Assembly: GCF_002833405.1 (NCBI RefSeq)
Contig: NZ_CP025123.1
Location: 62,001 to 126,000 of the forward strand
Direction: 5' to 3'
Length of the DNA stretch: 64,000 nt
From: Planococcus sp. MB-3u-03
GTDB taxonomy: Bacteria > Bacillota > Bacilli > Bacillales_A > Planococcaceae
Position numbers and translations under genes: made by a program. The notes under the pieces were generated by a model. That model had not been told where the DNA came from. It saw only the letters and a program-made list of their open reading frames with translations, and ran no database searches. Each line of letters starts with the position of its first letter. Position 1 is the first letter of the stretch. Positions 4,143-17,557 of the stretch are shown piece by piece.

Positions 4143-4234
4143 GTCGAGCGCCACCGCTCCGACGGAGATGAACTAACAAGCCTTTGGGCTGATTTGAACC
4201 ATAGCATTTTTGCTGTGCGACCAATCAACCCAAA
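4143..4234 (+). ncRNA. Structured leader RNA L1 with intrinsic terminator
   Basis: The 5' hairpin pairs GTC-GAGCG (4143-4150) with CGCTC-GAC (4155-4163), with one bulged C at 4160. A linker leads to a long interrupted hairpin: outer stem GCCTTTGGG (4180-4188) with CCCAAAGGC (4219-4227), then TGATT with AATCA, then CATAGC with GCTGTG. Seven T's follow. It matches leaders at 5353, 10856 and 17401 in sequence and structure, and its outer stem differs from theirs by compensating changes. It sits between the promoter and the first start codon, so it is likely an attenuator or antitermination site. Confidence 0.75.
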
Positions 4235-4289
4235 GGCTTTTTTTCGTTCAAAAATAGCGTAAAAAAAGCTTTAGGAAAGGGTGTAGAAT

Positions 4290-4379
4290 ATGAGTGCCAA
4301 TTTGATTTCGGTACCAACTTACGTTTGTAGAGTAAAAGAGGCTGTTTTGTTTAAGGGGAGGTATTCTGATGCGATTTAA
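4290..4379 (+). CDS. 29-aa leader-type ORF overlapping the next gene
   Basis: This short ORF starts at the ATG that follows the conserved AGGAAAGGGTGTA ribosome site also found after leaders L2 and L5. It ends at 4379, 11 bases inside the next gene, whose own ribosome site (AAGGGGAGG) lies within it. That arrangement suggests translational coupling or a regulatory peptide. The 29-residue product has one Cys and no recognisable motif. Confidence 0.5.
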   Translation: MSANLISVPTYVCRVKEAVLFKGRYSDAI

Positions 4380-4905
4380 AGTAACTTGTTTCTTTAATGA
4401 AGCCACAGAACGACTATTTCAGATTTTAGAGAAAAAGCACTTTATGAGAACGCGCAGCAATACTCTTACATGGAGTCACAAGAAAAACTCTTTAGAAATT
4501 GTGCCCTTTTCAAGTCCAGGAAGAGAAACCAACGGCTATCGTTTTTATTATGAAGGATGCAGCGAAGTTTTCGAATTTGTTTTTAATAACCTCGCTGGAA
4601 AACTTGATCCCATGATCACCGGAGTTGAATGTACTATCTCTTCCAGTCTGAAACAGCAACAATTAATTCAGTTGGCCAAAGAGACACGCTACAGAGATTG
4701 TAGTATGCCCGGTCTTTACGAAATGGAAGGCGTGGGCATTGTCCTGTTAAAAAACGGAGAAGTAAATTTCCAAATGAGAAATCGTCGATTTACAATCGGC
4801 TCGCTACACGATTCGATTACCAAAATCAATCGAATTGCAGACCCATTGCTCGCCTTGTTGCCGGCAGCAGAGAAGAGAAACCGTAAAGAGAGAGCATTGG
4901 CTTAA
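4369..4905 (+). CDS. Hypothetical protein (178 aa) behind leader L1
   Basis: I recognise no family. The ATG at 4369 has a strong AAGGGGAGG 8 bases upstream. The protein is soluble and mixed alpha/beta, with a very basic C-terminus (KRNRKERALA). It is first in a short operon with the 83-aa gene at 4942, under control of leader L1. Confidence 0.75.
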   Translation: MRFKVTCFFNEATERLFQILEKKHFMRTRSNTLTWSHKKNSLEIVPFSSPGRETNGYRFYYEGCSEVFEFVFNNLAGKLDPMITGVECTISSSLKQQQLIQLAKETRYRDCSMPGLYEMEGVGIVLLKNGEVNFQMRNRRFTIGSLHDSITKINRIADPLLALLPAAEKRNRKERALA

Positions 4906-4941
4906 TTGCTTATCTATGAATAGATAAAGGGAGGAATTTTA

Positions 4942-5193
4942 GTGGGAAAATCAGTGAATATACAATTGAGCAAGTTCGAGACGCTTCAACTCTTTAATGA
5001 CGGAGAACGAATCCATGTGATTCGTATAAACGAAAGCGGGGAATCAGCTTGCGGTAATTTATCTCAAGAGCAGATTAATGGTCTGATAGAGCTTCTGCAG
5101 CACTGTAATCACGAGAAGAAAGAGTATATGAATACACTTTGGGATAATGAAGAAATTGCAACATGTGAAGATTGTGGAGAGGAAGTAACTTGA
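4942..5193 (+). CDS. Small acidic protein with C-terminal Cys pair (83 aa)
   Basis: It starts at GTG 4942, preceded by AAGGGAGGAA. The product is acidic and ends in CEDCGEE, a CxxC that could be half of a zinc knuckle, with HCNH earlier (around residues 54-57) as possible further ligands. It lies 36 bases after the 178-aa gene and is closed by a terminator. Function unknown. Confidence 0.65.
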   Translation: MGKSVNIQLSKFETLQLFNDGERIHVIRINESGESACGNLSQEQINGLIELLQHCNHEKKEYMNTLWDNEEIATCEDCGEEVT

Positions 5194-5210
5194 CTAGAAG
5201 TGGTAATAAT

Positions 5211-5247
5211 AGAGTATCGACCAAAAGTCGATGCTCTTTTATTTTTG
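5211..5247 (+). terminator. Intrinsic terminator
   Basis: The stem GAGTATCGAC with GTCGATGCTC (one G-U pair) and a CAAAA-type loop is followed by a T-rich run. Confidence 0.85.
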
Positions 5248-5293
5248 AGTACAATAAGGAGATAGAAATCTCTTGAATTTTCTTCAAATTGTT

Positions 5294-5322
5294 TTGATTC
5301 TTAACAATAGGTAGGCTATAAT
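5294..5322 (+). promoter_or_regulatory. Sigma-A-type promoter of leader L2
   Basis: TTGATT (5294-5299) and TATAAT (5317-5322) are separated by 17 bases. Transcription would begin about 24 bases before the first leader hairpin. Confidence 0.8.
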
Positions 5323-5352
5323 TTAACTATACTTATTTTTCTTTTTAATTTT

Positions 5353-5457
5353 GTCGAACGTTACACGTTCTGACGGTGATGACTCTAACAAGCCTCTGGG
5401 CTGATTTTGACACATAGCTTTTTGCTATGATGACTAATCATTCCAGGGGCTTTTTTG
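5353..5457 (+). ncRNA. Structured leader RNA L2 with intrinsic terminator
   Basis: GTC-GAACG (5353-5360) pairs with CGTTC-GAC (5366-5374), with a bulged T at 5371. After the linker GGTGATGAC comes the interrupted hairpin: GCCTCTGG with CCAGGGGC (ending 5450), inner CATAGC with GCTATG, conserved CTGATT and TGACTAATCA in the internal loop, and a T6 run. It belongs to the same family as L1, L3 and L5. The downstream gene starts 55 bases after the T-run. Confidence 0.8.
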
Positions 5458-5511
5458 CGTTTTCTTTTAAAAGAAAAATAAGTGAAAAACCATTAGGAAA
5501 GGGTGTATTTT

Positions 5512-5910
5512 ATGAACAACATTCAAAAAAGGGTGAAGCCGAATCCATTTACACTTGTCCAAAATTCGGTCGATTCCAAAGAGAAAAAAGGAGCATTTTC
5601 TTCATCAAAACTGAAAGATTGTAGCTTGCGGACTTTTCGAATGGAAATCAATACTTCTGACGGAAAAATCCGCCATTACGGACTTCGTTGTGACAATCAA
5701 GAGGATGCTCGTGAACAAGCAATTCAGATGGTAAATGATATGGCTTTCTCTTATGGAGATAATCGTATTATGTGGCGCTTAGCTGGAGATCGACACTGGA
5801 GCTTTCAGGGAGCGGTACACAAGAAAAAGAGCTTGCTTCAAAAAATCATGGAATATTTCTTTGTTCTTGATGATGAAGAGGAAGAAGCTCAATTTAACCA
5901 CGGAAAGTAA
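5512..5910 (+). CDS. Hypothetical protein (132 aa) behind leader L2
   Basis: It starts at ATG 5512 after the conserved TTAGGAAAGGGTGTA ribosome site; a GTG at 5503 lies inside that site and is unlikely. Its middle part (about residues 40-100) is a compact beta-alpha-beta segment rich in W, H and R, and it ends in an acidic DDEEEEA tract. Function unknown. It is directly upstream of SSB and probably co-transcribed with it. Confidence 0.7.
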   Translation: MNNIQKRVKPNPFTLVQNSVDSKEKKGAFSSSKLKDCSLRTFRMEINTSDGKIRHYGLRCDNQEDAREQAIQMVNDMAFSYGDNRIMWRLAGDRHWSFQGAVHKKKSLLQKIMEYFFVLDDEEEEAQFNHGK

Positions 5911-5971
5911 ATTTATTTAAAAGTGCATAAGTCCACATCTACGGAGTGGCTCACTGAGAGGGGAACATACC

Positions 5972-6442
5972 ATGATAAATCGCGTAGTTTTAGTAGGAAG
6001 ACTTACAAAAGATCCGGATCTTCGCTATACACCATCAGGCGTAGCCGTTGCACGTTTCACTTTGGCAGTCAATCGCAATTTCACAAAATCTGCTGGAGAT
6101 AAAGAAGCAGATTTTATTAATGTGACCGTTTGGCGCAAACAAGCTGAGAATGCTGCAAACTTTCTTAAAAAAGGTCACCTTGCAGGTGTTGAAGGAAGAA
6201 TTCAAACCGGCAGTTATGAAGGACAAGATGGGAAGCGAGTCTTCACTACAGAAGTTGTCGCGGACAGCGTTCAATTCCTGGAACCTCGCGGTAAATCGAG
6301 TCAGAGAGAATCGAATACAAATGGTGGGCAGTCAAATCAATCAAATCGTTCGCAAGAGCATTCCTATAGTGGAGCTAACAATGGTTCCTATAGCAATGGC
6401 AGCGGAAAATTTGAAGTCTCAGACGACGATCTGCCGTTTTGA
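5972..6442 (+). CDS. ssb: Single-stranded DNA-binding protein
   Basis: This 156-aa protein has a clear N-terminal OB fold beginning [19 protein letters not shown], with [10 protein letters not shown], then a Gln/Ser/Asn/Gly-rich linker and the acidic C-terminal tip DDDLPF that recruits repair and replication partners. The length is normal for the bacterial family. GAGAGGGG precedes the ATG. SSB coats ssDNA during replication or conjugative transfer, and plasmid copies commonly support replicon maintenance. Confidence 0.95.
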
Positions 6443-6461
6443 GATTCTGACAACCATAAGA

Positions 6462-6506
6462 GTAAAAGGAGCAACTGCAGAAATGCGGTTTCTCCTTTTT
6501 TTATTT
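6462..6506 (+). terminator. Terminator between ssb and the DUF3846-like genes
   Basis: AAAAGGAG pairs with CTCCTTTT around an inner AACTGC/GCGGTT stem, followed by a T-run. It is another interrupted terminator hairpin just upstream of a gene start, so it could also act as an attenuator. Confidence 0.7.
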
Positions 6507-6548
6507 TCAAAAATCACCGTTCCAATAGGAACGAAGGGAGCTATTAAC

Positions 6549-7337
6549 ATGACAACTTTTTTAATGAGAAAAGAAATGGAACTAGGATGGACAGAAGTGG
6601 AGATTAAAAACGAAAAAGAATTGACGCGAGTGGTAGGAGAACGCCTGCAAGAGTATGAACTCCCAATGGGTCTTCAATTGATCTATTCTGAACAAGCCCA
6701 ATTTGATGGAACTCCCGAGACATTTAGTGCAGCCATTGTCGAAGATGATGGAGATTCACAACCATTTTTCAAAACTGTTCTTTTGGCAGCTGTCGGCAAA
6801 AATAAGAGCTTAAAGCCTTTGAGTGCTGAACAAGTGAAGTGGCTTAATAGCCATTCTGAACTTGTGCAAACGCCGGCCGGCCAATTGGTTATGAAGATCA
6901 ATCCGTTTTTGGTGGAAGAAATTGCACCTGTAAAAACAGAAGCTCAGTTTCTTGCTAGACAACCACAAGATCCAGGATTCGAGTTGGTGTCGTTGCCTTC
7001 ACTCAAAGAAAAGCAGATTTATGTAGATGGGAATATAGAGTACATCGAATTGCCGAATGGCATTGATTTGGGTGTAAACGACGAGTTTCTGTTTATCTCT
7101 TCACCTGATACGTTGAATCTTTGTTTGATACAAAAGAGTGGAAGAACACAAAAGATATTCGGATCCGTTTATTTCGCAGCAACGAATGAGAAAGGCGAAA
7201 CGACTTCCTTATCCGCTGAAAAAATGAAATGGATTCAAGACAGAACGGAACTAGTAGTCAGCGGCGAAGGTAAACTCTTTATGGTTTTTGACCCTTATGA
7301 AATTGTGATTAAGCCAGAAAAGGGGGCCTTCGAATGA
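6549..7337 (+). CDS. Two-domain DUF3846-like protein (262 aa)
   Basis: The start is ATG 6549 with GAAGGGAG upstream; the frame stays open back through ssb, but that extension is a shadow. Two copies of one domain (about residues 1-115 and 150-255) each run 'VGG/DG-x-E-x-I/L-P-x-G-I-D/Q' through a hydrophobic core to 'V-x-x-A-A...LS-A-E-x-[VM]-K-W-[LI]'. The pattern resembles DUF3846, a family of unknown function found on phages and plasmids. The next gene starts with a 4-base overlap. Confidence 0.7.
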   Translation: MTTFLMRKEMELGWTEVEIKNEKELTRVVGERLQEYELPMGLQLIYSEQAQFDGTPETFSAAIVEDDGDSQPFFKTVLLAAVGKNKSLKPLSAEQVKWLNSHSELVQTPAGQLVMKINPFLVEEIAPVKTEAQFLARQPQDPGFELVSLPSLKEKQIYVDGNIEYIELPNGIDLGVNDEFLFISSPDTLNLCLIQKSGRTQKIFGSVYFAATNEKGETTSLSAEKMKWIQDRTELVVSGEGKLFMVFDPYEIVIKPEKGAFE

Positions 7338-7735
7338 GCTATCTACAAGGGTTTCTAACCATCCGACCAGGAGCGATGACATTCAATGACTGGCCACTTC
7401 CGACTCTTGAAAGACGAGAGTTTTTTGTGGATGGCCATTTGGAGCGATTGGAGTTGGCCGAGGGTATCGATATCTGGATTAACGAAAAACAGTATGAAAA
7501 AGCCAGCGTGGACAATCTTAGCCTGGTTATTCAAAACGGAGAGAAAAAGCGTCTGATTTTTGGTAATGCGTTTTTTGCAACGACCGACAAACTTGGGAAT
7601 TGTATCAGCATGAGCAATGAACAAGTGGATTGGTTACGTGCGCATTTACTGACCAGCGTAAAAAATGAAGCGGAATTCTACAAGATTATAGACGTGAATG
7701 CCGCTCCAAGATCAAATGTGGGGGTGAGGTCATGA
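7334..7735 (+). CDS. Single-domain DUF3846-like protein (133 aa)
   Basis: It overlaps the previous gene by ATGA and the next by the same arrangement, so the three are translationally coupled. The core (FFVDGHLERLELAEGID ... FGNAFFATTD ... MSNEQVDWLRAH) repeats the pattern of the neighbouring domains. The N-terminus carries a short Trp/Pro-containing extension. Function unknown. Confidence 0.7.
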   Translation: MSYLQGFLTIRPGAMTFNDWPLPTLERREFFVDGHLERLELAEGIDIWINEKQYEKASVDNLSLVIQNGEKKRLIFGNAFFATTDKLGNCISMSNEQVDWLRAHLLTSVKNEAEFYKIIDVNAAPRSNVGVRS

Positions 7736-8154
7736 GTCGCTTTCTTGCTAAAGTAACTAACGACAATCAGTGGACTGAAGTTACCCTGCAAAACGAGCAT
7801 GAGATGAACGTCTTTGTCGGCGGTCGAGCAGATGTCATTCCGTTGTCGATGGGAATCGATTTGCACTTGAATGATGGTTTGATCACTGAACTGGAGAATC
7901 TTCCACTCAACTTGTTTTTGAGCTTTGACGATGATGTACATCCTGTTTATGGGAATGTGTTTGTTGCGGGCCGAGATGAATGTGGAGATCCGATTCCTCT
8001 AACCCGAGAGCAGAAAAAACATTTGGATGCTACTTTTCATGTCATGACGATGCCGAGTGGGTTAAAAATCATGCACCTACATCCTGGAGGATTTCATTGC
8101 AAAATGATTGAACCGCTCCGGATACTTGGCGAAGCTTTGGGAGAATCTATATAA
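7732..8154 (+). CDS. Single-domain DUF3846-like protein (140 aa)
   Basis: It is the fourth copy of the domain: VFVGGRADVIPLSMGID, then YGNVFVAGRDE and PLTREQKKHLDA. Its first lines (WTEVTLQNEHEM) match the first domain of the 262-aa protein (WTEVEIKNEKEL), which points to a local duplication. Function unknown. Confidence 0.7.
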   Translation: MSRFLAKVTNDNQWTEVTLQNEHEMNVFVGGRADVIPLSMGIDLHLNDGLITELENLPLNLFLSFDDDVHPVYGNVFVAGRDECGDPIPLTREQKKHLDATFHVMTMPSGLKIMHLHPGGFHCKMIEPLRILGEALGESI

Positions 8155-8209
8155 AAAATAAATGAGCTTCACATGGCTACCGAGCGCTAATGTGAACAAG
8201 AGAGGACTA

Positions 8210-9277
8210 ATGACTATGAGCCAAATTGGAAATAAACTAAAAGCGGGATTTTTTGCTACACCGACACGACAAGGGGAATACCTGCGGCAGCTGTTGAGCT
8301 TTACGACTGATACAGCCGTTTTAGATCCTACTTGTGGGGAAGGAAAGATTCTTCAACAACTAGCAGAAGATCGTACTGAAAGAGATTTCACAGTGAAAAC
8401 GTATGGCGTGGAGTTGGATAAGCGGAGAGCCCAAATTGCTGCAGAGCACTTAGATGTAGCGGTAGAGGCACCAATCGAATCAATGGTCATTTCCAATGAT
8501 GCTTTTGGCTTCGTTTTTCTGAACCCTCCATATGATCACACAATGGTCGGCTATGGCGATGAACAGTCCGAGCGGAAAGAATATACGGAATTGGTTCGAG
8601 GAACGCGTTATTTGGCCCCAGGCGGCGTTGTAATGTACATCATTCCATCGTATCGTTTCAGTGATAAAAAAATAGCTAGGTTTCTATCTTCGAACTTTGA
8701 AGAATCCCATTTGACGCGATTTACGGACCAAGATTATCCGGATTTTCGCCAATGTATCTTCATTGGCCGCAAAAAGAAAGAAACACGAAAGGCCATCAAC
8801 AAAGAAATGTTCGAGCATCTTACCGCTTGCTCGAGCGAAGACTTTGTAATGGACCAGGTAACGACAGTTGAGCAACTTGCCGCAAAGATTGAACCGCTGC
8901 AAGTTCCAGCTGCTAAGCCGGTAGTGGCAACCTTTTATTCGAGAATTGAAAAGAAAAGTGAATTCATTTCAATGATCAAAGGCAATAAAGGGTTTGCTGC
9001 TTTCCAGGAAAGAACCAAGCCAAAAAAACTAACCATTGGCGGTGAACCGATTATCAATATCGCTCAAGGACAGATGGCCCTGTTGCTTGCGTCTGGAGCG
9101 GTTAATGGTCTAATTGGCACTGGCGATGATCTTCACGCTGTACAGGGCATGGAGAAGGTTTCTAAAGTGATTACCGAGGAATCGACTGAACATACGAATA
9201 TTACCAAGTCGAGGACTAAACGGGAGGTATCAGTTAAAATCATAACGCCACAAGGCGTAGTGAAAAAACTGGTCTAA
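8210..9277 (+). CDS. DUF6094-like N6-adenine methyltransferase-fold protein
   Basis: ATG 8210 is chosen because AAGAGAGGA precedes it; the upstream ATG 8162 has no ribosome site. The protein has SAM-binding motif I as DPTCGEGK (about residues 38-45), an acidic VELDKRRA at the end of beta 2, and the catalytic NPPY (about residue 104) of N6-adenine methyltransferases. The overall pattern resembles DUF6094 proteins of plasmids and phages. No restriction endonuclease is adjacent, so it may be an orphan DNA methylase protecting the element. Target unknown. Confidence 0.75.
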   Translation: MTMSQIGNKLKAGFFATPTRQGEYLRQLLSFTTDTAVLDPTCGEGKILQQLAEDRTERDFTVKTYGVELDKRRAQIAAEHLDVAVEAPIESMVISNDAFGFVFLNPPYDHTMVGYGDEQSERKEYTELVRGTRYLAPGGVVMYIIPSYRFSDKKIARFLSSNFEESHLTRFTDQDYPDFRQCIFIGRKKKETRKAINKEMFEHLTACSSEDFVMDQVTTVEQLAAKIEPLQVPAAKPVVATFYSRIEKKSEFISMIKGNKGFAAFQERTKPKKLTIGGEPIINIAQGQMALLLASGAVNGLIGTGDDLHAVQGMEKVSKVITEESTEHTNITKSRTKREVSVKIITPQGVVKKLV

Positions 9278-9302
9278 TGAGTCAACTATCAATAATTATA
9301 GA

Positions 9303-9336
9303 AGAGCGGCGTCTACGTTGCTCTTTTATTTTAGCT
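9303..9336 (+). terminator. Intrinsic terminator
   Basis: AGAGCGGCG pairs with CGTTGCTCT over a 4-nt loop (G-U tolerant), followed by TTTATTTT. Confidence 0.75.
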
Positions 9337-9403
9337 TTGTTGGACAACCCAAATAATTTATGGCTCAATTAGTGATGAGAAGAAAGTCGAGGTGGCCTTA
9401 AAA

Positions 9404-10033
9404 ATGGAAATAAGAGAAAAAACAAAAAAAATCCTCCAGAGAACGCAATGGTATCATGGAACAACAAAAGATGGATTCAAAAAAATAATGAGCCAAGGTG
9501 TTAAATTTGATGTTGGATTGGGAAGTGAATTAGACTTTGGTCCAGGCTTTTACTTAGCGCCCGAACATCAAATGGCCGAAAACTTCATTACCAACCAGAT
9601 CAATGTCTTGAAAAAAGAGGGGACGGAAGAGTTCTTATCTTCTGATCAGTTAGAACCGGTGATAATCGAATTCGGCTTTACACCCTATCACTATTGGGAA
9701 AATGGAGAGTTAAAGGTTCTCGATAAATTCGATCGTGAATTCGCTTCTTTTGTTACAGAAAACCGAATACGCGCCTTGGAGGGATTAGTTCACGATTATC
9801 CTTTAGTGTACGGCGTTATGAGCGACACCATACCGACTTTACTAGTTTCACAATTTAGGGATGGGGAATTAAGTAAAGAAGAGGTTATAACTGAAATCCA
9901 AAAAACTCGTAATAGCAAAAGACAAGTATCTATTCATAGGCAAGAAATTTGTGATATACTTACAATGACAAACGCCTATGAAGTAGACGGAGGAAAGGAG
10001 TTAGATATTAATGATTACCGCAACGATAAATGA
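9404..10033 (+). CDS. DUF3990-like ADP-ribosyltransferase-fold protein
   Basis: ATG 9404 has AGGTGG 8 bases upstream, preferred over GTG 9392, which sits in that site. WYHGTT (about residues 16-21) and the later FGPGFYLAP (about 45-53) are typical of ART-superfamily folds, including DUF3990. The HGT begins the NAD-binding core and GFYL the second strand. The length of 209 aa is in the family range. It overlaps the next small gene by 23 bases. Related gene pairs are suspected toxin-antitoxin modules, and that role is inferred here. Confidence 0.65.
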   Translation: MEIREKTKKILQRTQWYHGTTKDGFKKIMSQGVKFDVGLGSELDFGPGFYLAPEHQMAENFITNQINVLKKEGTEEFLSSDQLEPVIIEFGFTPYHYWENGELKVLDKFDREFASFVTENRIRALEGLVHDYPLVYGVMSDTIPTLLVSQFRDGELSKEEVITEIQKTRNSKRQVSIHRQEICDILTMTNAYEVDGGKELDINDYRNDK

Positions 10034-10226
10034 CCGCGAGCGCTTAGCGAAAGATTTGGAAGATTCCCTGGTGTATTTTGCACATCGACAAAAGAAGTCT
10101 CTTACAAGAGAAGAAGCAGCTAAAATTTCTCAGCGGGTAATGGCTAATGTTGATATCGAAAACTCTGCCTTTGCACACAAAGGGCCTTCATGGCTTGCAA
10201 GAGAAATTGTAAGTAACCTTAAATAA
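10011..10226 (+). CDS. Small helical partner protein (71 aa)
   Basis: ATG 10011 lies inside the ART-like gene and has AAAGGAG 8 bases upstream. The product looks fully alpha-helical. Its position mirrors that of small DUF3791-type partners next to DUF3990 genes, but I cannot assign it to that family by sequence. A terminator follows, so the pair is a two-gene unit. Confidence 0.65.
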   Translation: MITATINDRERLAKDLEDSLVYFAHRQKKSLTREEAAKISQRVMANVDIENSAFAHKGPSWLAREIVSNLK

Positions 10227-10232
10227 TCAATA

Positions 10233-10268
10233 AAAAAGCGGGCAGATTTATGCCTGCTTTTTTTTGTG
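10233..10268 (+). terminator. Intrinsic terminator
   Basis: AAAAAAGCGGGCA pairs with TGCCTGCTTTTTT over a 6-7-nt loop, A-tract and T-tract included. Confidence 0.9.
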
Positions 10269-10305
10269 GATTAAAGTATTTCAATGAAATAATGGAGGGA
10301 CAGGT

Positions 10306-10755
10306 ATGTTATCTGAAGAAAATGCAATGCTTTTAGAAAAGATGGAGAAATACCAAGAGAATAATAGATACCGTGATAAGTTTTATAAAGGTTTCAATTT
10401 CAATAAAATACCTGAGACATTGGAAAGTATCTATATTTTATATGATAAAGAAGACATAGTTTTATATGTGGGTGAGTCTGCTAGGACGAATGGTCGTTTG
10501 AAGGCTCATTTGAATCAACATAATAACTGGGATAATGTTGTAATAACCAAGATAAAGGTAATTCCTTTCACTAAAAAGACCTTGAAAAAAGAAAGATGTA
10601 TGGTAGAAAAAATGTTTATAAATCTGTTGAACCCTGTAGGAAATGAAATTAATCGAAATAGAAACACAAGGGATGATGAAGTTATTGAGCTGAAAAGGCT
10701 AAACAATCCTTACGAAGTTAACAACCTTGAAAAAGATGAACTCGAATTATATTAG
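10306..10755 (+). CDS. GIY-YIG nuclease-fold protein (149 aa)
   Basis: The core IYILYD (from about residue 43), followed by VLYVGES, R-L-x-H-L and later a Glu in KKERCMVEKMFI, fits the GIY-YIG domain (two short beta strands with Tyr, then Arg and Glu of the active site). The ATG has AATGGAGGG upstream. No DNA-binding domain is fused, so this is not a classical homing endonuclease. It may be a small repair or interference nuclease. It sits alone between a terminator and leader L3. Confidence 0.7.
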   Translation: MLSEENAMLLEKMEKYQENNRYRDKFYKGFNFNKIPETLESIYILYDKEDIVLYVGESARTNGRLKAHLNQHNNWDNVVITKIKVIPFTKKTLKKERCMVEKMFINLLNPVGNEINRNRNTRDDEVIELKRLNNPYEVNNLEKDELELY

Positions 10756-10796
10756 TTCATGAAGAAGCGTCACAGAGAGTGTGTAATTTTGTAAGA

Positions 10797-10824: not shown

Positions 10825-10855
10825 AAACTCATACATTTTCTTTTGATTTATTTTT

Positions 10856-10959
10856 GCAAACCTTTTAGGTTTCGCAGGTGACGACTTTATTTAAGCCTCT
10901 GGGCTGATTTGATTCATAGCTTTTTAGCTGTGTTGACCAATCACCCCAGGGGCTTTTTT
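10856..10959 (+). ncRNA. Structured leader RNA L3 with intrinsic terminator
   Basis: GC-AAACC (10856-10862) pairs with GGTTT-GC (10868-10875), with a bulged C at 10873. The linker is AGGTGACGAC. The terminator hairpin has outer stem GCCTCTGGG with CCCAGGGGC, inner CATAGC with GCTGTG, conserved CTGATTTGA and TTGACCAATCA, and T6. The 5' stem sequence is quite different from L1/L2/L5, yet its pairing and bulge are preserved. Confidence 0.8.
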
Positions 10960-11010
10960 GCGTTTCTGCAGACTTTTTAGGTGCCGCATTCGTAGATCGG
11001 AGGAAAGTAT

Positions 11011-11263
11011 ATTGAATAATTCTATTAGAAGGAGAGATGAAGTTATGAATGAAGGAAACTACTCAGTGTATTATCGTGCGAGAACCAATGATTATATTAT
11101 TGTCGCCTTTGATGATGAAAAGGACGGAAAAAGAAACTAGACCTACTTGTTAAAGGTTATTCGACTTTGACGAAAACTTCTTCTTATGAAGATGCCGAAA
11201 ATTTCATCATGGAATATCTCTATCAAAAGATGACGACTTTCAGCATTCAAAGAGGCTATTAAG
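11011..11263 (+). pseudogene. Frame-broken paralogue of the XF1762 protein N-terminal domain
   Basis: A TTG start at 11011 after GGAGGAAAG (or ATG 11044) opens an ORF that stops at 11140. The neighbouring frame continues it (KKLDLLVKGY ... SYEDAENFIMEYLYQ) to a stop at 11263. The switch lies at an A-run near 11131 that is one A short. The joined product resembles residues 1-65 of the next gene (YSVYYRARTNDYIIV against YWVFYKESTNHYIVL). It is either a pseudogene or a sequence error. Confidence 0.6.
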
Positions 11264-11291
11264 TAGTTACAGAGAGACAGGAGAGAAAAAT

Positions 11292-11936
11292 ATGGTTGAG
11301 AAAACAAGCGAATGGTATTGGGTTTTCTATAAAGAATCCACAAATCACTATATCGTATTAGCCGATCAAGACATTGACCACGATAATCGTTGGATTTTAC
11401 ACCGTGACGATTATGAAGTCCTTACAGATTGTTGCCGCTCCCGAGAACAAGCGGAGAGGTATGGTAAAGAATACGGTTATCAGAGACTAAAGTACAAAAC
11501 CCCGCCTATTTCATTGAGAGAGGCATGCGAATTTGTAAATACTCATCATCGGCACCACATTTCCCCGCAAGGTCATAAATTTTCTATCGCTTTATACGAT
11601 GGAGATATTGTGATTGGCGTAATCATTGCGGGTAGGCCGGTTTCGCGTATGCAAGATAATGGTCTGACTCTTGAAGTCACTCGTTGCTGTGTCAAAGAAG
11701 TCTACAAAAACGGAATCACTAAGCTCTATGCAGCCGTTTACCGAGTAGCACAGGCAATGGGTTATGAAAGAATCATTACCTACACCTTAGAAAACGAATC
11801 GGGAACGTCGATGAAGGCAGCGAACTTTAAACGCAAACATATCAGTAAAGGCGGTTCCTGGAATTCTCCAAGCCGTCAGAGAGAAAATAAGCATCCGCTT
11901 GAAGCGAAGTATCTGTGGGAATTACAGATCAGCTAA
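11292..11936 (+). CDS. XF1762-family GNAT-like protein (214 aa)
   Basis: After an N-terminal domain of about 65 residues comes the characteristic core: ISLREACEFVNTHHRHH, PQGHKFSI, then GVIIAGRPVSR, LEVTRCC, LYAAVYRVAQAMGYERIITYT and a Gly/Ser turn. This is the XF1762 family, related to acyltransferase (GNAT) folds and found on phages and mobile elements. Substrate unknown; a Mom-like modification of DNA bases is one possibility. Its N-terminal domain is duplicated in the broken gene just upstream, and a DNA methyltransferase operon follows. Confidence 0.8.
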   Translation: MVEKTSEWYWVFYKESTNHYIVLADQDIDHDNRWILHRDDYEVLTDCCRSREQAERYGKEYGYQRLKYKTPPISLREACEFVNTHHRHHISPQGHKFSIALYDGDIVIGVIIAGRPVSRMQDNGLTLEVTRCCVKEVYKNGITKLYAAVYRVAQAMGYERIITYTLENESGTSMKAANFKRKHISKGGSWNSPSRQRENKHPLEAKYLWELQIS

Positions 11937-11979
11937 AAGTGAGGTGCTTTTTTTATTAAATCTAAAGGAGAGATTAGCT

Positions 11980-12444
11980 ATGTATTCACTATTTGAATTT
12001 CTAGATGCAATTGAGGGAGAAAAAGTTAAAAAAGAACAACCTAAGAATGTCATTTTCCAAGAACATTCAAAAACGACATTCCACCCGGACCTTGCTGATT
12101 GGCAGGCGGTCGAGTATATGCCTGGATTGCAGCAATGCGAAGTGATCGGATTGATACCAGCGGACTTGTTGTCACCAACGGAAGGGAAGTATTCAAGCCT
12201 TACTCCGGAGAAGCGACAGGAGCGGGTAGAAATATGGTCAACTTACGTTCGGGCCATTAGCAATGCCATTCCAAAGAGAGACATTAAGACACATTGGATA
12301 AATGCATGTGGGCGACTAAGTGAAGCTCGTATAAGCCAAACTCCAATCCGGTTAAAGATTTCCGATTGTATGAACGAACGGTTTGTTGAAATGGAAGTCA
12401 TCGAATACCTGTCTTCAGAGAAGAGAGGTGATTCCAATGATTAA
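11980..12444 (+). CDS. Hypothetical protein (154 aa) upstream of C5 methylase
   Basis: ATG 11980 has AAAGGAGAG upstream. Not recognised: an alpha/beta protein with an internal region (about residues 70-120) that looks helical and basic. It overlaps the cytosine methyltransferase by 8 bases, so the two are probably coupled and may act together. Confidence 0.65.
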   Translation: MYSLFEFLDAIEGEKVKKEQPKNVIFQEHSKTTFHPDLADWQAVEYMPGLQQCEVIGLIPADLLSPTEGKYSSLTPEKRQERVEIWSTYVRAISNAIPKRDIKTHWINACGRLSEARISQTPIRLKISDCMNERFVEMEVIEYLSSEKRGDSND

Positions 12445-13429
12445 AATTCTCGAACTGTTCGGTGGCATTGGCGCTCCAAGAAAAGCATTAATCAATATGG
12501 GGATCGACCATAAGGCAATTGATTACGTGGAAATAGATGAAAAGGCAGTACGAGCTTACAACGCATTGTATGACCCGCGATATAAGCCGCAGACTGTGGT
12601 GAATTACAATCTAATGCCAGATGTACTGATTCACGGATCTCCGTGTCAGGACTTCAGCAGAGCAGGAATACGACTAGGCGGAAATGGGGAAGACAAAACG
12701 CGTTCTTCGCTAATGTGGGAGACATTGAAAATTATCGAGAATATGGGGAATTGGAAGCCGCGCTATGTGATTTGGGAAAACGTGAAGGGTGTATTAGATA
12801 AAGACATGATTCACTCCTTCAATAAGTACCTCATACGTATGAGAGAGCTCGGCTATACGAATAGCTTTGAAGTCTTAAATGCGATGGACTTTGGGATTCC
12901 TCAAAAAAGAGAACGTGTATTTACTATTTCGATACTCGGCAGCGGTTGTTTTGATTTCTCCAAATTGAAAAAGAAACCCGCTCCGGATATTAAGAACTTC
13001 CTGGAATCTAAAGTAATAGGCGATCAGTATAAAATTTCTGTCCCGTCTATGATGAACAGAATCCGTGAGTTTGCTACAGAGGATATGAATTATCGATTCC
13101 TCGATGTAATTGATACGCATTGTTGGACCATTAGCACAAGACAAGATCGTTGCCCAAACGCCGGCATCATTAAAAACGATGATGGTCCGTACCGCTATTT
13201 AACGGAGCGGGAATGCTGGCGTCTGATGGGCTTTGGTGATGATGATTTCGACAATGTGTTGAAAGAGTATCCAATGAAGCCAGGGAAGCGAAATGCAACT
13301 TTATATAAACTAGCCGGCAACAGCATCGTCGTGAACGTTTTAGAGGCCATATTTGACGTTCTGTTAAACGAGCAGCATAAGGAACCGTTCTTTGCCTTTG
13401 AGCCGCATGAGCAGTTGCAATTGGTGTAA
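12437..13429 (+). CDS. DNA (cytosine-5) methyltransferase
   Basis: This 330-aa protein has the C5-MTase motifs in order: I (MIKILELFGGIGAPRKAL), IV with catalytic Cys (GSPCQDFS, about residues 66-73), VI (ENVKG, about 114), VIII (QKRERVF) and the C-terminal motif X (LAGNSIVVNV). It transfers a methyl group to cytosine in a sequence set by its variable region between VIII and IX, which is short here. No cognate endonuclease is adjacent, so it is probably an orphan methylase that shields the element from host restriction. Confidence 0.92.
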   Translation: MIKILELFGGIGAPRKALINMGIDHKAIDYVEIDEKAVRAYNALYDPRYKPQTVVNYNLMPDVLIHGSPCQDFSRAGIRLGGNGEDKTRSSLMWETLKIIENMGNWKPRYVIWENVKGVLDKDMIHSFNKYLIRMRELGYTNSFEVLNAMDFGIPQKRERVFTISILGSGCFDFSKLKKKPAPDIKNFLESKVIGDQYKISVPSMMNRIREFATEDMNYRFLDVIDTHCWTISTRQDRCPNAGIIKNDDGPYRYLTERECWRLMGFGDDDFDNVLKEYPMKPGKRNATLYKLAGNSIVVNVLEAIFDVLLNEQHKEPFFAFEPHEQLQLV

Positions 13430-13461
13430 TAGGGAGATATTAAAACGATTGGGGAGAAAAG

Positions 13462-13791
13462 ATGATGAAAAATGAAGAGTTAATTCGAGAGTATCGTGAA
13501 ACCAGTAAATTGATGAAAGAGTTAGCTGCTAGTGGAAACCTGGAAGAGAGAAATCTATATGTCCCTCGAATGACTGAGCTCTCTAACCAAATAGATTGGG
13601 GATATAGAAAAGGAGATTTAGTAGAACGAAAAACCGGTCGAGGTTGGGAGGAAGATGTCATTCAGGAAGTAAGAGGATCGGAAATTCATTTCCGGACTAT
13701 GATTCTTCCACCAGCAATGATTCGAAGACCTATAAAAAATCAGAAAACGATTATCGAGATGACATTCGAACAAATTAGTCTATTTTCATAA
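13462..13791 (+). CDS. Small protein with C-terminal clamp-binding-like motif (109 aa)
   Basis: It starts at ATG 13462 (GGGGAGAAAAG upstream); an adjacent ATG at 13465 is equally possible. The N-terminus is helical and charged, the middle carries KGDLVERKTGRGWEED, and the protein ends in EQISLFS. QISLF matches the QL[SD]LF consensus by which bacterial proteins bind the beta sliding clamp. It is last in the methyltransferase operon. Confidence 0.65.
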   Translation: MMKNEELIREYRETSKLMKELAASGNLEERNLYVPRMTELSNQIDWGYRKGDLVERKTGRGWEEDVIQEVRGSEIHFRTMILPPAMIRRPIKNQKTIIEMTFEQISLFS

Positions 13792-13795
13792 ACTT

Positions 13796-13833
13796 TAAAA
13801 AAGGGTTTGCTTTTTAGCAAAGCCTTTTTTTAA
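13796..13833 (+). terminator. Intrinsic terminator
   Basis: AAAAAAGGGTTTGCT pairs with AGCAAAGCCTTTTTT over a T-rich loop. Confidence 0.9.
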
Positions 13834-14032
13834 TGCACAAAGGTCGTATTGAGACTAATAGACATTTAACTATAAATAATAAGTAAATGTATAGGGGGAT
13901 ATAGACCCAATAGACCTTTTCTTTGGGACATTTTTTGATATATCTTGTAGACAGAGTAAATAAATAGTATTTAAATTGATAAATGCCCAATTATTTGAAA
14001 TTTCGTGATATTATCGAAATGGGGGTCTTAGT

Positions 14033-15290
14033 GTGAAAGATGGAGCATTACTAAAATATCATCGAAAAAGGGGCTAAATCAAGAGCAGGTCCTTTGAGGG
14101 CATCGTTTCGACTTCCTATTATTCAAAAATTGAAAATGATCTAGTCGAACCTGCACCAGAAACATATAATCTCTTGTTCGAAAAGTTAGGTTAGAAAGAA
14201 CCAATGCAGAGATAGAAAATCGAAAGTTTATAAAATTATTAATGGATTGGGAAAAGCCATTACTATTTAATAATCTCGAAGAGGCAACTTTGATAAAAGA
14301 AAAGCTCGAAAATTTACTTATTAAAGTCATAGAAGTAGACCTCCTATTAGAATATCAAGTTAAATTAGTACGATTTTGTATTATTGCCAAGCAGTTGTCA
14401 GACATAAAAAACTCATTATAGTTTTAGCTGAATTAACTGAAAATTTAATTTGAGAACTTTTTTCTATTACAAGCATTTGGGGAACTTTTCTATGCTACGG
14501 GAGACTACACAGAGCAGATGAACACCTAGCAATTTCTGTATCGTTGTATAATTCCAATCATTTTCCAATTAGAGAAGGCCGATACCCATTACTTATATAG
14601 CTTAGTGTTGTCTAATCTCAGAAATGATTATAATAACTTAAGCTTTGCAGAATCTTCTTTGGCGGTTTTAGAGATCATTACCGATTGGAAAGCTGTGCTC
14701 AAAGCACACATTCAAATTGGTATTGGAAATAGTCGGCTCTTAAATACCGATGTCGCCTTAAAAGCATTACAATCTTGCTAAGAACCTTTCTTAAAGAAAG
14801 GCAAGATTATAAGATACTCGGAATTATTGAACACAACATCGCTAGTTTACTCCATCGGCGAGAAATAGGAGCTGCCATTAAACATTGAAAATTAGTCTTG
14901 ACTATAAGAAAAAGTTCTATGACTCAAGTTACTTTACTACACTGATTCTTCTTATAACCTACAATTATGAACAAAATGAAATATCAGCATGCAAAAGTGG
15001 ATTGAGGAGGTATCATTTTATTGAACAAAGTTGAAGCATCAAAATACAAGAGTTAGAAATTGAATTTTATAGACAGTTTATATTAGATAACGATTCTGAC
15101 TGGGAACTTTTTGCACTAAAACATTTTTGTTTTCTAAAGAAAATAAAAATGGAATCACCTAACCACTTACTCTAAAATCATTGGTAATTATTTTAATAAG
15201 AAGATGCTGTACAAAAATCTGCTTTATATTTTCAAGAAGCGATAATAGGTCATGAAAATATTCATGTTCGATAAAAAAGTAGCGAAAGAA
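14033..15290 (+). pseudogene. Degraded RNPP/XRE-type regulator with helical repeats
   Basis: From GTG 14033 the pieces read KDGALLKYHRK, NQEQV, then GIVSTSYYSKIENDLVEPAPE, a classic XRE helix-turn-helix. A long stretch of helical pieces in shifting frames follows (for example NLEEATLIKEKLENLL and LLEYQVKLVRFCIIAKQL), like the TPR part of PlcR/NprR/Rgg regulators. Many frame changes and stops break it. These regulators normally bind a short imported peptide, and a candidate peptide gene lies directly downstream. Confidence 0.6.
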
Positions 15291-15299
15291 GGGAATATT

Positions 15300-15441
15300 A
15301 TGAAAAATTCTTGTTCTACTATTAATGACTTTTTATATCAGCAGTTCTATGTCTACAGGTGCAGATTCACAAGCACAGCATGGTGCCCCACATGATGTTG
15401 GTGTTCCTTTATTAGATGAAGAAAATCCACCAGCAAACTAA
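15300..15441 (+). pseudogene. Exported signalling-peptide gene, frame-shifted at the start
   Basis: Just after the ATG at 15300 the frame shifts by one base in an A-run. The continuing frame reads KILVLLLMTFYISSSMS, then GADSQAQHGAPHDVGVP and LLDEENPPAN before TAA at 15439-15441. It would be about 46 aa with a hydrophobic export signal and a short polar tail. Size, export signal and position after an RNPP-type regulator match pre-peptides such as PapR or NprX. The mature peptide cannot be predicted safely. Confidence 0.5.
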
Positions 15442-15619
15442 GAGGTCCATAAAATGGAAAAATCAGTGAAATAATGAAACTATGGGACTTCTGAAAAGGG
15501 GGTCTTTTTAGTATAAAATAAAGCTCCTTAGATGTCAGACTTGCACAAGTCCCCAAAATAAGGCTATTAAGGTGCTAATATTTAACTTTAATTTCACAAT
15601 ACAAGGATTCAGAATATTA

Positions 15620-15638
15620 TGTACAATTGGAGTGTACA
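15620..15638. promoter_or_regulatory. TGTACA inverted repeat upstream of exported proteins
   Basis: TGTACA at 15620-15625 and 15633-15638 flank 7 bases, 17 bases before the start of the next gene. It is a plausible operator, perhaps for the adjacent RNPP regulator. Confidence 0.3.
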
Positions 15639-15657
15639 AAAATAAGGAGGTTTATTG

Positions 15658-16014
15658 ATGAAAAGTTTTATCTATATTCACGTTTGCTTTGGTTTTCGGG
15701 TTCATTTTCCAATTATGACAAGTGCGGCTAGCCAAAGCGAACCCGTAACCAAGAATTCTACAAACGACTTGGTAGTTTTGGATGACAGTTACATTTCAAA
15801 GTTGACGAAGAGACAGGTATTTACTTCCCGAAAAATAATCTCTACCAATAAAGATGCTAATGGACGGAAGTACAAAACAAAACCTATTGATGATTTTGAA
15901 ATGACAGATACAGAAATTATCGTTGATGGAGATGTTATCGCAACATTCCTCAGCACTTCAAAAGGTTCTTCAAAGGAATCGATGTTTACTACTCAAGATG
16001 TGTGGAAGCTATAA
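15658..16014 (+). pseudogene. Exported protein, signal-peptide frame broken
   Basis: ATG 15658 follows AAGGAGG. In frame the N-terminus is a poor signal, but an alternative frame in the same bases reads VLSIFTFALVFGFIFQL, a good signal peptide. That implies an indel in the A-run after the ATG and another before MTSAASQS. The remaining 90 residues are polar with beta-like segments. Family unknown. It may be an error-carrying sequence rather than a dead gene. Confidence 0.5.
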
Positions 16015-16040
16015 CACAATTACTACGATAAGTAGATCTA

Positions 16041-16340
16041 TTGTGGAATATAATAAATTTATTATGTATCATCCTGACTTTTCAACTTGGAGAAGTTAGC
16101 GGATACTACTTCTCAAATGGTTCAGTTTCGGTTTCGGTTTCAGTAGGCGGTACTTACGGTAATATTGGTTTATCGTATTCTCCGGCAGGTAGCGGATACT
16201 ACGTTAACACTAAAAATTCCTATACTCCATCACGTCCATACATTCAAGCTGATATTCAAAAGCACTATTATAAAGTCACAACGAAGTCATGTACAGGCCG
16301 TGTTATCGATACTAACTATAGAACAAAGTATTATGGGTAA
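16041..16340 (+). CDS. Small exported beta-rich protein
   Basis: The ORF starts at a TTG with no clear ribosome site, and the start may be affected by a frame break. Hydrophobic LCIILTFQLGEVSG is followed by a Ser/Val/Gly/Tyr-rich region with alternating SVSVSVGG, then a C-terminal part with many Tyr and Lys and one Cys. It looks exported. I cannot name a family; a bacteriocin-like or surface protein is possible. Confidence 0.45.
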   Translation: MWNIINLLCIILTFQLGEVSGYYFSNGSVSVSVSVGGTYGNIGLSYSPAGSGYYVNTKNSYTPSRPYIQADIQKHYYKVTTKSCTGRVIDTNYRTKYYG

Positions 16341-16498
16341 ATGATGAAATCAAAATCTCATATAGATAAATAAGATAAGAATGCAGGGGTGTAAAACTCC
16401 TTGCATTTTGTTTCTTTATAAAGTAAATTTCAGGTAAGTTAACTTTTCTTAATTTTACAATAAAAGAAATTTTAACAAATTGAAGGAGGATTTGTGTT

Positions 16499-16906
16499 AT
16501 GCGACCATTACATGTTCTTGCACTTCTTTTAGTCTCTATTATTTTGCAGGATGTAGCAGTCAAAGAAGTAATCCGGGTTGGAGAGCCGACAGTTGAAGAT
16601 ACCGATAACGAACAAGAGGTAGTAATTAAAGGTCACGAGATTACAAATGAAATTACTGATGAAAGTAATATCGAAGAAGTTAAGAAAGTTGTTGACCAAA
16701 TAGATAGTATAGAGCGTCCAGATCGTACGTTGTCTGAACCGCCAGAAACTTTTTTTGAACTTTATGAATCTGACAATTCAGTATCTGTCTTCCAGTATTA
16801 TTTGTGGATGCAACCAGATGGTGGGGCTATCTTGATGGATAGTAGCGAAAATTTTTTTGAAGCGGATGAAGAAAATACCGCGACTTTAAAAGAGGCATTA
16901 GAATAA
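16499..16906 (+). CDS. Possible lipoprotein (135 aa), start region suspect
   Basis: ATG 16499 has a strong AAGGAGGA. The N-terminus is hydrophobic (LHVLALLLVSIIL). A lipobox-like AGCSSQ is encoded at the right place but in another frame, which suggests compensating indels. The C-terminal half, with YYLWMQPDGGAILMD and a long acidic linker, resembles small YhfM-like lipoprotein domains. It lies third in a run of exported proteins. Confidence 0.55.
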   Translation: MRPLHVLALLLVSIILQDVAVKEVIRVGEPTVEDTDNEQEVVIKGHEITNEITDESNIEEVKKVVDQIDSIERPDRTLSEPPETFFELYESDNSVSVFQYYLWMQPDGGAILMDSSENFFEADEENTATLKEALE

Positions 16907-16924
16907 GTGAACCTTAAAAGCACA

Positions 16925-16952
16925 TTGCAACTTATATTTTTTTTGCTATAAT
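16925..16952 (+). promoter_or_regulatory. Promoter of leader L4
   Basis: TTGCAA (16925-16930) and TATAAT (16947-16952) are spaced by 16 bases. Confidence 0.75.
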
Positions 16953-16964
16953 AAAATCATATTA

Positions 16965-17055
16965 GCGACACATCGGTGTCCGCTGGATTGAACCACCCAA
17001 GCTCTTTGGAGCATTTTTCCCTTTAGGGAGAAGTGTCTTCAAGGAGCTTTTTTTA
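16965..17055 (+). ncRNA. Structured leader RNA L4 with intrinsic terminator
   Basis: GC-GACAC (16965-16971) pairs with GTGTC-GC, with a bulged C at 16981, exactly the bulge position seen in L1, L2, L3 and L5. The downstream terminator hairpin differs in sequence: AAGCTCTTTGGAG with CTTCAAGGAGCTT, and inner TTTTTCCCT with AGGGAGAA. The CTGATT/AATCA loop motif is missing. It is a structural analogue, perhaps a diverged member. Confidence 0.65.
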
Positions 17056-17077
17056 TTTTGAAAGGAGAGGTTAAGAG

Positions 17078-17317
17078 ATGGAAAAGAAACCAGCTGATTA
17101 TGTATGTGCAGTAAAAGTAGGGGAAAAAGAATTTGGGTATGTTTTAGTTCAAGAGGCGAATGAGCCTAAAATAGAAGTCATTGTGATTGATCACGAATCA
17201 GAATGGGTTCGCACGCTCGGAGAAGCCGATTGTCTAAAGGGGGCGGGCAGCATTCTTTCGACTGCTTTGGCAGAAGGTTTTGAGTTGAAGGGCATTGTTC
17301 ACCAAGCAGCTCAATAA
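17078..17317 (+). CDS. Hypothetical protein (79 aa) behind leader L4
   Basis: ATG 17078 has AAAGGAGAGG upstream. It is a small alpha/beta protein with alternating beta strands (YVCAVKVGEKEFGYVLVQ, IEVIVIDHE) and a C-terminal helix. No family recognised. It is a monocistronic unit between L4 and L5. Confidence 0.65.
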   Translation: MEKKPADYVCAVKVGEKEFGYVLVQEANEPKIEVIVIDHESEWVRTLGEADCLKGAGSILSTALAEGFELKGIVHQAAQ

Positions 17318-17400
17318 CCGCTCCCGCCGGTAAAAACGTATGGTATTGTCAAAACTTTTACGCTATACTTAGCTTATAACTTTTCTCTTCTTTTAATTTT

Positions 17401-17507
17401 GTCGAACGTATTCACGTTCCGACGGTGACGACATAAACAAAGCCTCTGGGCTGATTTGAACCATAGTATCTTTTACTATGCTGACTAATCAACCTAGGGG
17501 CTTTTTT
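17401..17507 (+). ncRNA. Structured leader RNA L5 with intrinsic terminator
   Basis: GTC-GAACG (17401-17408) pairs with CGTTC-GAC (17415-17423), with a bulged C at 17420. The linker is GGTGACGAC. The terminator has outer GCCTCTGGG with CCTAGGGGC, inner CATAGTA with TACTATG (covarying with CATAGC/GCTATG in L2), conserved CTGATTTGA and CTGACTAATCA, and T6. The gene start follows the conserved TTAGGAAAGGGTGTA. Confidence 0.8.
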
Positions 17508-17557
17508 GCGTTCTCACAAAGAGAGAGGTAAAAAATCTTTAGGAAAGGGTGTATTAA

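Follow-up and report, generated by a model that had tools for sequence, protein, structure and literature searches.

Establishment regulons, like the conAn antitermination system, occur on conjugative plasmids of Gram-positive bacteria (PMC8955417, PMC8708921), and conjugative plasmids that lack EGeRS1 or EGeRS2 must use other establishment mechanisms, of which single-stranded DNA (ssDNA) promoters are at least one (PMC8708921; this and the other PubMed Central (PMC) papers are cited for the parts of their text that concern these systems). EGeRS1 of pLS20 and EGeRS2 of p576 are conserved sequences present in several copies before ardC and other establishment operons (PMC8708921). The ANTAR systems (EutV, NasR, AmiR) use two small hairpins, the second of which overlaps the 5' part of an intrinsic terminator, and in the BglG/SacY systems an antiterminator that is exclusive with the terminator is stabilised by protein (PMC3369931). 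Here we describe, in a 64,000-nucleotide (nt) stretch of Planococcus sp. MB-3u-03 (the window; positions 62001-126000 of contig C1, NZ_CP025123.1, 129,321 bases, in the Planococcaceae genome G000 of 13 contigs), five leader RNAs, L1 to L5, that recall the EGeRS in their multiple copies and the ANTAR leaders in their layout. Each leader is probably a factor-dependent terminator/antiterminator attenuator of one plasmid regulon, with a 5' hairpin (P1) and a mini-hairpin in the 5' arm of the terminator (AT) as its putative binding module. The switch is a concrete further candidate for an establishment mechanism, found in a family of Bacillales plasmids: relatives of Bacillus from soil and sea harbour large plasmids with several copies of it before genes that a plasmid would need on entering a new cell, and the RNA family, absent from Rfam, comes with a defined two-state switch, as predicted, and a defined set of target genes. 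C1 is treated as a plasmid because of its synteny with the Planococcus lenghuensis plasmid NZ_CP019641.1 (329 kb, MOBQ), with which it has a gene backbone in common in mostly the same order, and with mostly collinear contigs of the relatives G020, G026, G254 and G279; circularity is not part of this basis. Genomes bear G-numbers below, and handles such as L009, L010, L053 and L160 denote sequence stretches, not leaders.

The anatomy that an earlier note had read from the letters of the window is borne out for L1, L2, L3 and L5: a 5' hairpin from which a single pyrimidine bulges, then a GGTGACGAC-like linker, then a terminator (P2) with middle and inner stems. Their folds lie at z -5.99 to -6.14 relative to 200 dinucleotide shuffles, none of which folds as well. 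L4, described there as a bulged hairpin with a different terminator, is found by a covariance model built without it (expect value (E) 2.2e-6). Two further copies lie on C1 outside the window, at C1:25348-25455 (minus strand) and C1:27212-27322 (plus strand), diverging from each other and flanking a 516-amino-acid (aa) open reading frame (ORF); with L1 to L5 they form what is, by sequence, one RNA family. The stems described in the terminator stand, and two elements had been missed, AT and a helix that we call P0. Terminator-like sites are enriched in window positions 3500-18000 (22 against 10.6 in shuffles).

Two covariance models were used, R1 built from 9 copies and R2 from the 43 copies of alignment A3 (matches at E<=5e-11 in 25 loci, weaker sense hits excluded); antisense matches to the palindromic terminators were excluded from copy counts. 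Statistical covariation, on which the earlier note had staked its reading, holds. In the alignment of 43 copies, 42 of them distinct, pairing holds in 98.3% of 1204 cells, double changes occur in 16 of 30 pairs (137 cells), the covariation score is 0.330 against 0.148 in shuffles, 0/500 of which reach it, and pairing falls to 31-54% in slid controls, the alignment having been fitted to the structure and its rows being related, two biases that both favour the structure. Further pair types are not extreme (40 against 37.0 in shuffles; 43/500). The helix cells comprise 1074 Watson-Crick, 110 G-U, 6 A-C and 14 other combinations; two near-invariant U-G columns hold 67 of the 110 G-U cells, which leaves 43 G-U against 6 A-C elsewhere. 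Because G-U far outnumbers A-C, selection appears to act on the sense RNA and not on single-stranded DNA. A promoter of the Frpo/ssi type, or a single-strand origin, folded in the transferred strand would suit a gene set that resembles leading-region genes (PMC11541004), but the same excess indicates selection at the RNA level and the promoter-like site lies outside the helices, making this a very improbable explanation; an Frpo-like ssDNA promoter was rejected on these grounds, the promoter-like site standing beyond the P1 and P2 helices in 26/33 copies.

The covariance-model search that the earlier note had proposed recovered homologues in Planococcaceae and Bacillaceae. R1 matches 9/150 relatives at E<=0.001 and 28/261 family genomes at E<=0.01, the latter scan including weak single matches at E 0.001-0.01; R2 matches 21/261 family genomes at E<=0.001 and, in an even sample of the class, 7/398 genomes, 5 of them Planococcaceae. 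Six contigs hold 5-8 sense copies each (41 copies counted). The same backbone recurs in plasmids of five Bacillaceae genera, where R2 has matches at E<=0.01 in Sutcliffiella (6), Rossellomorea (9), Priestia (4), Halobacillus (6) and Cytobacillus (4), two of these matches being antisense. Other genomes carry one or few copies, some of them (by eye) close to ORFs resembling recombinases or excisionases; these copies may belong to other mobile elements or be remnants. A leader sub-family in L106, L107, L053, L103, L046 and L047, from genomes that lack the multi-copy set, precedes a family of small ORFs (~68-115 aa), followed in L106 by a recombinase-like ORF; it is perhaps a separate mobile element employing the same RNA. 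Comparison with Rfam, including the Bacillus-plasmid RNA, assigned no known family: at the gathering score there was no match in the window or in stretches L009, L010, L160 and L163, and positions 4000-18000 gave only weak sub-threshold matches.

P1 scores above the chosen cut-off in 56/74 leaders by automatic search, in a list that includes near-identical orthologues, and among the 56 the bulged base is C in 33, A in 14 and T in 9. The A-bulge leaders are Bacillaceae in 13/14 cases, the remaining one (G206_C5) being a false fit, and no above-score Bacillaceae leader has a C or T bulge; in 14 Bacillaceae leaders fetched later, P1 is present in 13, with A bulged in 11, C in 1 and T in 1. GG usually follows P1 and the P1 loops vary. 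A small-molecule riboswitch common to the regulon would account for a conserved structure upstream of an expression platform, and we regard it as very improbable, as the P1 loop and stem vary freely and the downstream genes have no metabolic theme. P1 and its linker are kept where the terminator sequence differs (the L4 class and the DUF3854 class of G254 and G279).

AT, a hairpin of 3-6 base pairs whose loop is mostly UUUG or UCUG, usually stands 16-17 nt after P1. The CT of CTGATT, unpaired in the terminator yet almost invariant, completes the hairpin AGCC-UYUG-GGCU, and since AT occupies the 5' arm of P2 it cannot coexist with the P2 outer stem. Stem variants include AACC/GGUU, GUUC/GAAC, UGCC/GGCA, GCUC/GAGC, GGUC/GACU, GAUC/GGUC and GUCC/GGAU. 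Because a first count had picked the best-pairing site, the count was redone with a blind rule that takes the first TYTG, after removal of 12 near-identical G020/G026 copies: the loop is present in 65/66 leaders, of which 57 have at least 3 pairs and 50 at least 4, and shuffles reach the observed pairing in 39/5000 cases at level 1, in 0/5000 at levels 2 and 3 and in 133/5000 at level 4. Among the 14 Bacillaceae leaders, which were fetched after AT had been conceived, 12 have at least 4 pairs and the other two pair around a five-base loop (by eye), so that the predicted two-hairpin layout recurs there (P1 in 13/14, AT with at least 4 pairs in 12/14). In the combined set TYTG lies in the searched stretch of 79/80 leaders (65 TTTG, 14 TCTG), with 0/5000 shuffles at levels 2 and 3, 5/5000 at level 4 and no signal at levels 5 and 6; for Bacillaceae alone (30 leaders) the figures are 0/5000, 1/5000 and 9/5000 at levels 2, 3 and 4. 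When transcripts are truncated ahead of the 3' arm, those of L1, L3, L5 and the C1:25348 copy (4/7 tried) adopt a fold that contains AT.

In 26/33 copies the -10 box that scores best is 28-32 nt upstream of P1, and in 27/33 an A stands 7 nt past the box; the search took the best site per copy without a background rate. Behind the T-run, an ORF of at least 25 codons begins within 130 nt in 39/39 copies and at 13-59 nt in 38/39 (without a background rate), and a conserved ribosome-binding site (RBS) box is present in 27/39; this survey took 39 of the 41 copies on the six contigs, two G026 copies being left out. That the hairpins merely terminate upstream operons and are followed by new promoters is hardly credible: they look like good intrinsic terminators with same-direction genes upstream, but the -10 box precedes P1 at its set distance, the spacing to the ORF is tight for an extra promoter and RBS, and P1 and AT covary.

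P0 is a copy-specific helix that can join the U-rich 5' end of the transcript to the stretch separating T-run from RBS, over at least 15 consecutive pairs in L2. For 25 representatives the cognate duplexes have a mean of -9.7 against -5.9 kcal/mol (0/20,000 permutations), and without the four DUF3854-class copies (21 copies) -11.2 against -6.7 kcal/mol (standard deviation 0.49; 0/20,000); by plasmid, the permutation counts of 20,000 are 158 for C1, 856 for PLEN, 53 for G254 and 163 for G279. Since its 3' strand is transcribed after the terminator, P0 cannot decide termination. The multiple copies and the terminator interior conserved in sequence would also suit a trans-acting small RNA, with readthrough incidental; this is very unlikely, since all 39 examined copies precede ORFs (a count without a background rate) and the partner of each copy in P0 is its own mRNA.

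The genes behind the leaders, which the earlier note had called unrelated, need a different description: ArdC, SSB, Rad52-like, DnaN, methyltransferase and helicase proteins look like one functional set. The units comprise ArdC with a helicase-like protein; DUF6018, SSB, DUF3846-like and DUF6094 proteins; a Mom-like protein with a C5 methylase; Rad52-like, DnaN and E2/JAB/ThiF-like proteins; and a DUF4258-like protein with DUF3854. By their content, they look like an establishment regulon of the plasmid, and DUF6018, DUF3846 and the 178-aa family become candidate establishment or anti-defence genes. A leader stands ~70-100 nt before the Rad52 match in 5/5 Bacillaceae plasmids and before ArdC in all 3 whose inspected stretch includes an ArdC gene. 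Between these Bacillaceae ardC leaders and the gene there is a second terminator-like hairpin (by eye; L162 19798-20010, L163 38624-38847, L166 11758-11965). In the Rad52-DnaN region, Prok-E2, Prok-JAB-like and ThiF genes (L009 10517-13130), with relatives in 5/5 compared contigs, are predicted to form a ubiquitin-like conjugation set.

Of the two regulatory schemes in the earlier note, plasmid-wide attenuation is well supported by the multi-copy leaders, the -10 box at a fixed distance, the nearby ORF starts, homologues in two families, covariation and the exclusive AT. Long-range processive antitermination across the plasmid is not supported: more sense terminators do lie among the transfer genes beyond the DUF3854 unit (with similar numbers on the antisense strand), and second terminator-like hairpins follow several Bacillaceae leaders (by eye), but the L1 and L2 units close with strong terminators (5211-5237 and 9298-9329) and the DUF4258-DUF3854 unit has a strong sense terminator ~1.75-1.9 kb from the leader in 6/6 contigs. 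The same observations bear on the idea that P1 together with its linker acts as an RNA of the put, EAR or conAn2 type, which would bind RNA polymerase and carry it past terminators without a protein. This would explain why P1, its bulge and GG persist in front of differing terminators, and why terminators and second hairpins lie downstream, and it would match the occurrence of conAn and establishment regulons on Gram-positive conjugative plasmids (PMC8955417, PMC8708921); we consider it unlikely, since the covariation of AT implies that every terminator has its own switch in cis, strong terminators close the units and the model has no match in the whole of pLS20.

For the factor-dependent attenuator, we propose that AT comes first and stacks on the inner stem of P2; such stacking is possible because AT abuts the inner stem with zero gap in the model. 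A trans-acting factor, probably an RNA-binding protein, would then recognise P1 and AT: where AT persists, readthrough would result, and where P2 closes, termination. P0, forming only after readthrough, may protect the 5' end or tune translation. Because of the gene content of the regulon (ArdC, SSB, Rad52-like protein, sliding clamp, DUF3854, methyltransferases, helicase), the switch would open after plasmid entry and serve the establishment of the incoming plasmid. The balance tips slightly towards a positive factor that stabilises AT, which is likelier than a donor factor enforcing termination, a rather doubtful arrangement. 

Several observations weigh against this proposal. On its own, AT is worth -4.8 to -5.7 kcal/mol, whereas P2 reaches about -30 to -36, so that P2 should win without a factor, and the truncated transcripts of L2, the C1:27212 copy and L4 (3/7) fold without AT, these cuts having retained part of the 3' arm. 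AT covariation is modest on the Planococcaceae alignment alone (3/500); AT levels 1 and 2, and at every level the 5' base, also pair in P2, and in most copies only the outer 3' AT bases are independent of terminator pairing. The TYTG background on four contigs, 136/5518 sites (2.5%) with at least 4 pairs, is an unfair control because the models that collected the leaders know the consensus at the AT position, the shuffles being fairer. P0 was first spotted by eye in four copies that also sit in the permutation test, is absent from L3 and the DUF3854 class (15,774/20,000 permutations), and is weaker in Bacillaceae (-8.0 against -6.2, 38/20,000), in a test of 15/16 leaders, one having too short a 3' segment, that is confounded by segment length. 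The upstream promoters of the earlier note agree with the spacing of the -10 box; promoter-like sites as a whole are not enriched in window positions 3500-18000 (40 against 36.5 in shuffles). The trans-acting factor is hypothetical, opening after entry is read from gene content, and the whole body of evidence is sequence.

The conserved plasmid protein with S1 RNA-binding domains (296 aa; C1:47858-48748, L010 7858-8748; PF00575, 1.1e-10), encoded after the coupling-protein gene, is only a candidate for the factor, for which other conserved plasmid proteins may also qualify. It occurs in 8/261 family genomes at E<=1e-12, of which 7 carry leaders, including all six multi-copy ones, while the eighth, G269, has two partial matches; at the same threshold it is missing in 14/21 leader-bearing genomes. 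Its 14 good plasmid matches (at least 34% identity and 97% coverage) fall in exactly the 14 records that give the best DUF6094 matches (at least 45%), and since both proteins belong to the shared backbone, its co-occurrence with leaders is not independent evidence. We put forward tentatively that a plasmid RNA-binding protein, perhaps this one, acts on P1 and AT of all leaders, so that entry into a cell lacking this protein, or just supplied with it, would flip all establishment operons together; establishment would then be timed at the level of RNA, through controlled termination instead of a promoter repressor or ssDNA promoter. A single CAT_RBD protein was found, and its gene is on contig C13 and not on that of the plasmid; the ANTAR protein profile matched nothing in the genome, the same search being silent in all 14 controls.

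Among described systems, the best reading is that the switch works like ANTAR or BglG antiterminators, as judged from sequence, but fails the ANTAR loop test. In the ANTAR 13-mer AGCAANGRRGCUY, AGC and GCU can likewise form a stem that closes a loop (PMC3369931); ANTAR hexaloops carry A first and G fourth, whereas C-UYUG-G of AT has C at position 1 and U (DNA T) at position 4, and P1 here has variable loops and a bulged base. BglG/SacY differ in that our leaders have the two-hairpin layout and the CAT_RBD protein sits on C13. The leaders are likewise unlike EGeRS1, EGeRS2, LoaP and ssDNA promoters in the sequence features tested. EGeRS1 spans about 400-750 bp with multiple inverted repeats and no detected promoter (PMC8708921), against an RNA of ~110 nt with an upstream -10-like box here, and the whole of pLS20 has 0 matches to R2. 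EGeRS2 consists of a strong promoter that carries Reg operators (PMC8708921), here replaced by a promoter-like site and the ~110-nt RNA switch; its operators were looked for as the dual motif TTATCCCnnTTATCCC with at most 3 mismatches and gave 5 matches against 6.3 expected, none at a leader promoter. The comparisons with LoaP and conAn that the earlier note had proposed came out negative in the features examined. LoaP, like our leaders, has a small leader hairpin ahead of an intrinsic terminator but needs a NusG paralogue and a UNCG hairpin (PMC12691694); it was rejected because the AT loops are UUUG/UCUG and a single NusG-family protein (PF02357) was found in the genome, on C13, with controls positive in 10/14. 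The conAn system belongs to Gram-positive conjugative plasmids and shares the antitermination theme (PMC8955417), but it pairs a ConAn1 protein with a conAn2 RNA at the start of the conjugation operon, as against several dispersed leaders here, and R2 has no match in pLS20, its prototype.

DNA searches of plasmids matched Planococcus lenghuensis only, and a search of phages gave a 26-nt match to the 3' part of the terminator in three Streptococcus phages. A pattern scan of genome contigs returned 29 stretches, 4 from CANLRI010000004.1 (uncultured Planococcus) and 25 from other, mostly distant taxa, which are taken as a group to be chance. The lone viral-contig match was not leader-like by eye. 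Bacillus pumilus pONU554, considered as a possible p576 relative, has an ardC-like gene after the relaxase gene and no covariance-model match, and the ardC region of Enterococcus avium has none either. The element is not described in the titles and abstracts of the open-access PMC literature searched, outside which most subscription journals lie, and a word search of the main text of a premature-terminator survey (PMC2965389) found no mention of plasmid, conjugat-, ArdC or phage. The leader elements and the genes behind them are listed in Table 1.

Table 1. Positions of leader elements and associated genes, numbered within the window.
Feature	Position	Strand	Remarks
L1 promoter TTGCAG-17-TAGAAT	4082..4110	+	start A at 4117 inferred from A 7 nt past -10
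L1 P0 5' strand CTATTTTTG	4121..4129	+	
L1 hairpin P1	4143..4163	+	bulged C at 4160, then linker GGAGATGA
L1 terminator P2 with T-run	4178..4244	+	
L1 AT (antiterminator mini-hairpin), AGCC-TTTG-GGCT	4179..4190	+	exclusive with P2 outer stem
L1 P0 3' strand CAAAAATAG	4249..4257	+	
L1 conserved RBS box AGGAAAGGGTGT	4273..4284	+	
178-aa protein behind L1	4369..4905	+	no Pfam match; preceded by 29-aa ORF 4290-4379
L2 promoter TTGATT-17-TATAAT	5294..5322	+	inferred start A at 5329
L2 P0 5' strand ACTTATTTTTCTTTT	5331..5345	+	
L2 hairpin P1	5353..5374	+	bulged T at 5371, then GGTGATGA
L2 terminator P2 with T-run	5390..5456	+	
L2 AT, AGCC-TCTG-GGCT	5391..5402	+	
L2 P0 3' strand AAAAGAAAAATAAGT	5469..5483	+	
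L2 unit	5503..9277	+	DUF6018, SSB (5972-6442), three DUF3846-like proteins (one slightly below cut-off), DUF6094
L3 -10 box TATAAT	10819-10824	+	
L3 hairpin P1	10855..10876	+	bulged C at 10873, then GGTGACGAC
L3 terminator P2	10893..10959	+	AT 10894-10905; P0 not found
L3 region genes	11292..13429	+	Mom-like (weak match, below cut-off), C5 DNA methylase
L4 hairpin P1	16964..16984	+	bulged C at 16981
L4 terminator	16999..17054	+	sequence differs; AT GCTC-TTTG-GAGC at 17001-17012
79-aa protein behind L4	17078..17317	+	
L5 -10 box TATACT	17364..17369	+	inferred start A at 17376
L5 P0 5' strand ACTTTTCTCTT	17379..17389	+	
L5 hairpin P1	17401..17423	+	bulged C at 17420, then GGTGACGAC
L5 terminator P2	17439..17507	+	AT at 17441-17452
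L5 P0 3' strand AAGAGAGAGGT	17519..17529	+	
ArdC-like antirestriction protein behind L5	17558..18451	+	ArdcN 7.5e-13; then helicase-like ORF 18473-21880

Elsewhere in the window, the protein encoded at positions 24474-25046 is conserved, and its relatives carry response-regulator annotations; a LuxR-type helix-turn-helix is present in three Bacillaceae relatives, the window copy giving weak matches only. A large PKD-repeat protein with 270-nt repeats is encoded at 26-3523 (C1 60754-65523 as one ORF) and has relatives in 3/5 compared contigs. Two diverged copies of an ISL3-type insertion element (91-96% in aligned blocks) lie at 46460-47537 and 60182-61258, with transposase ORFs on the minus strand at 60281-61273 (330 aa) and, shorter, at 46574-47176.

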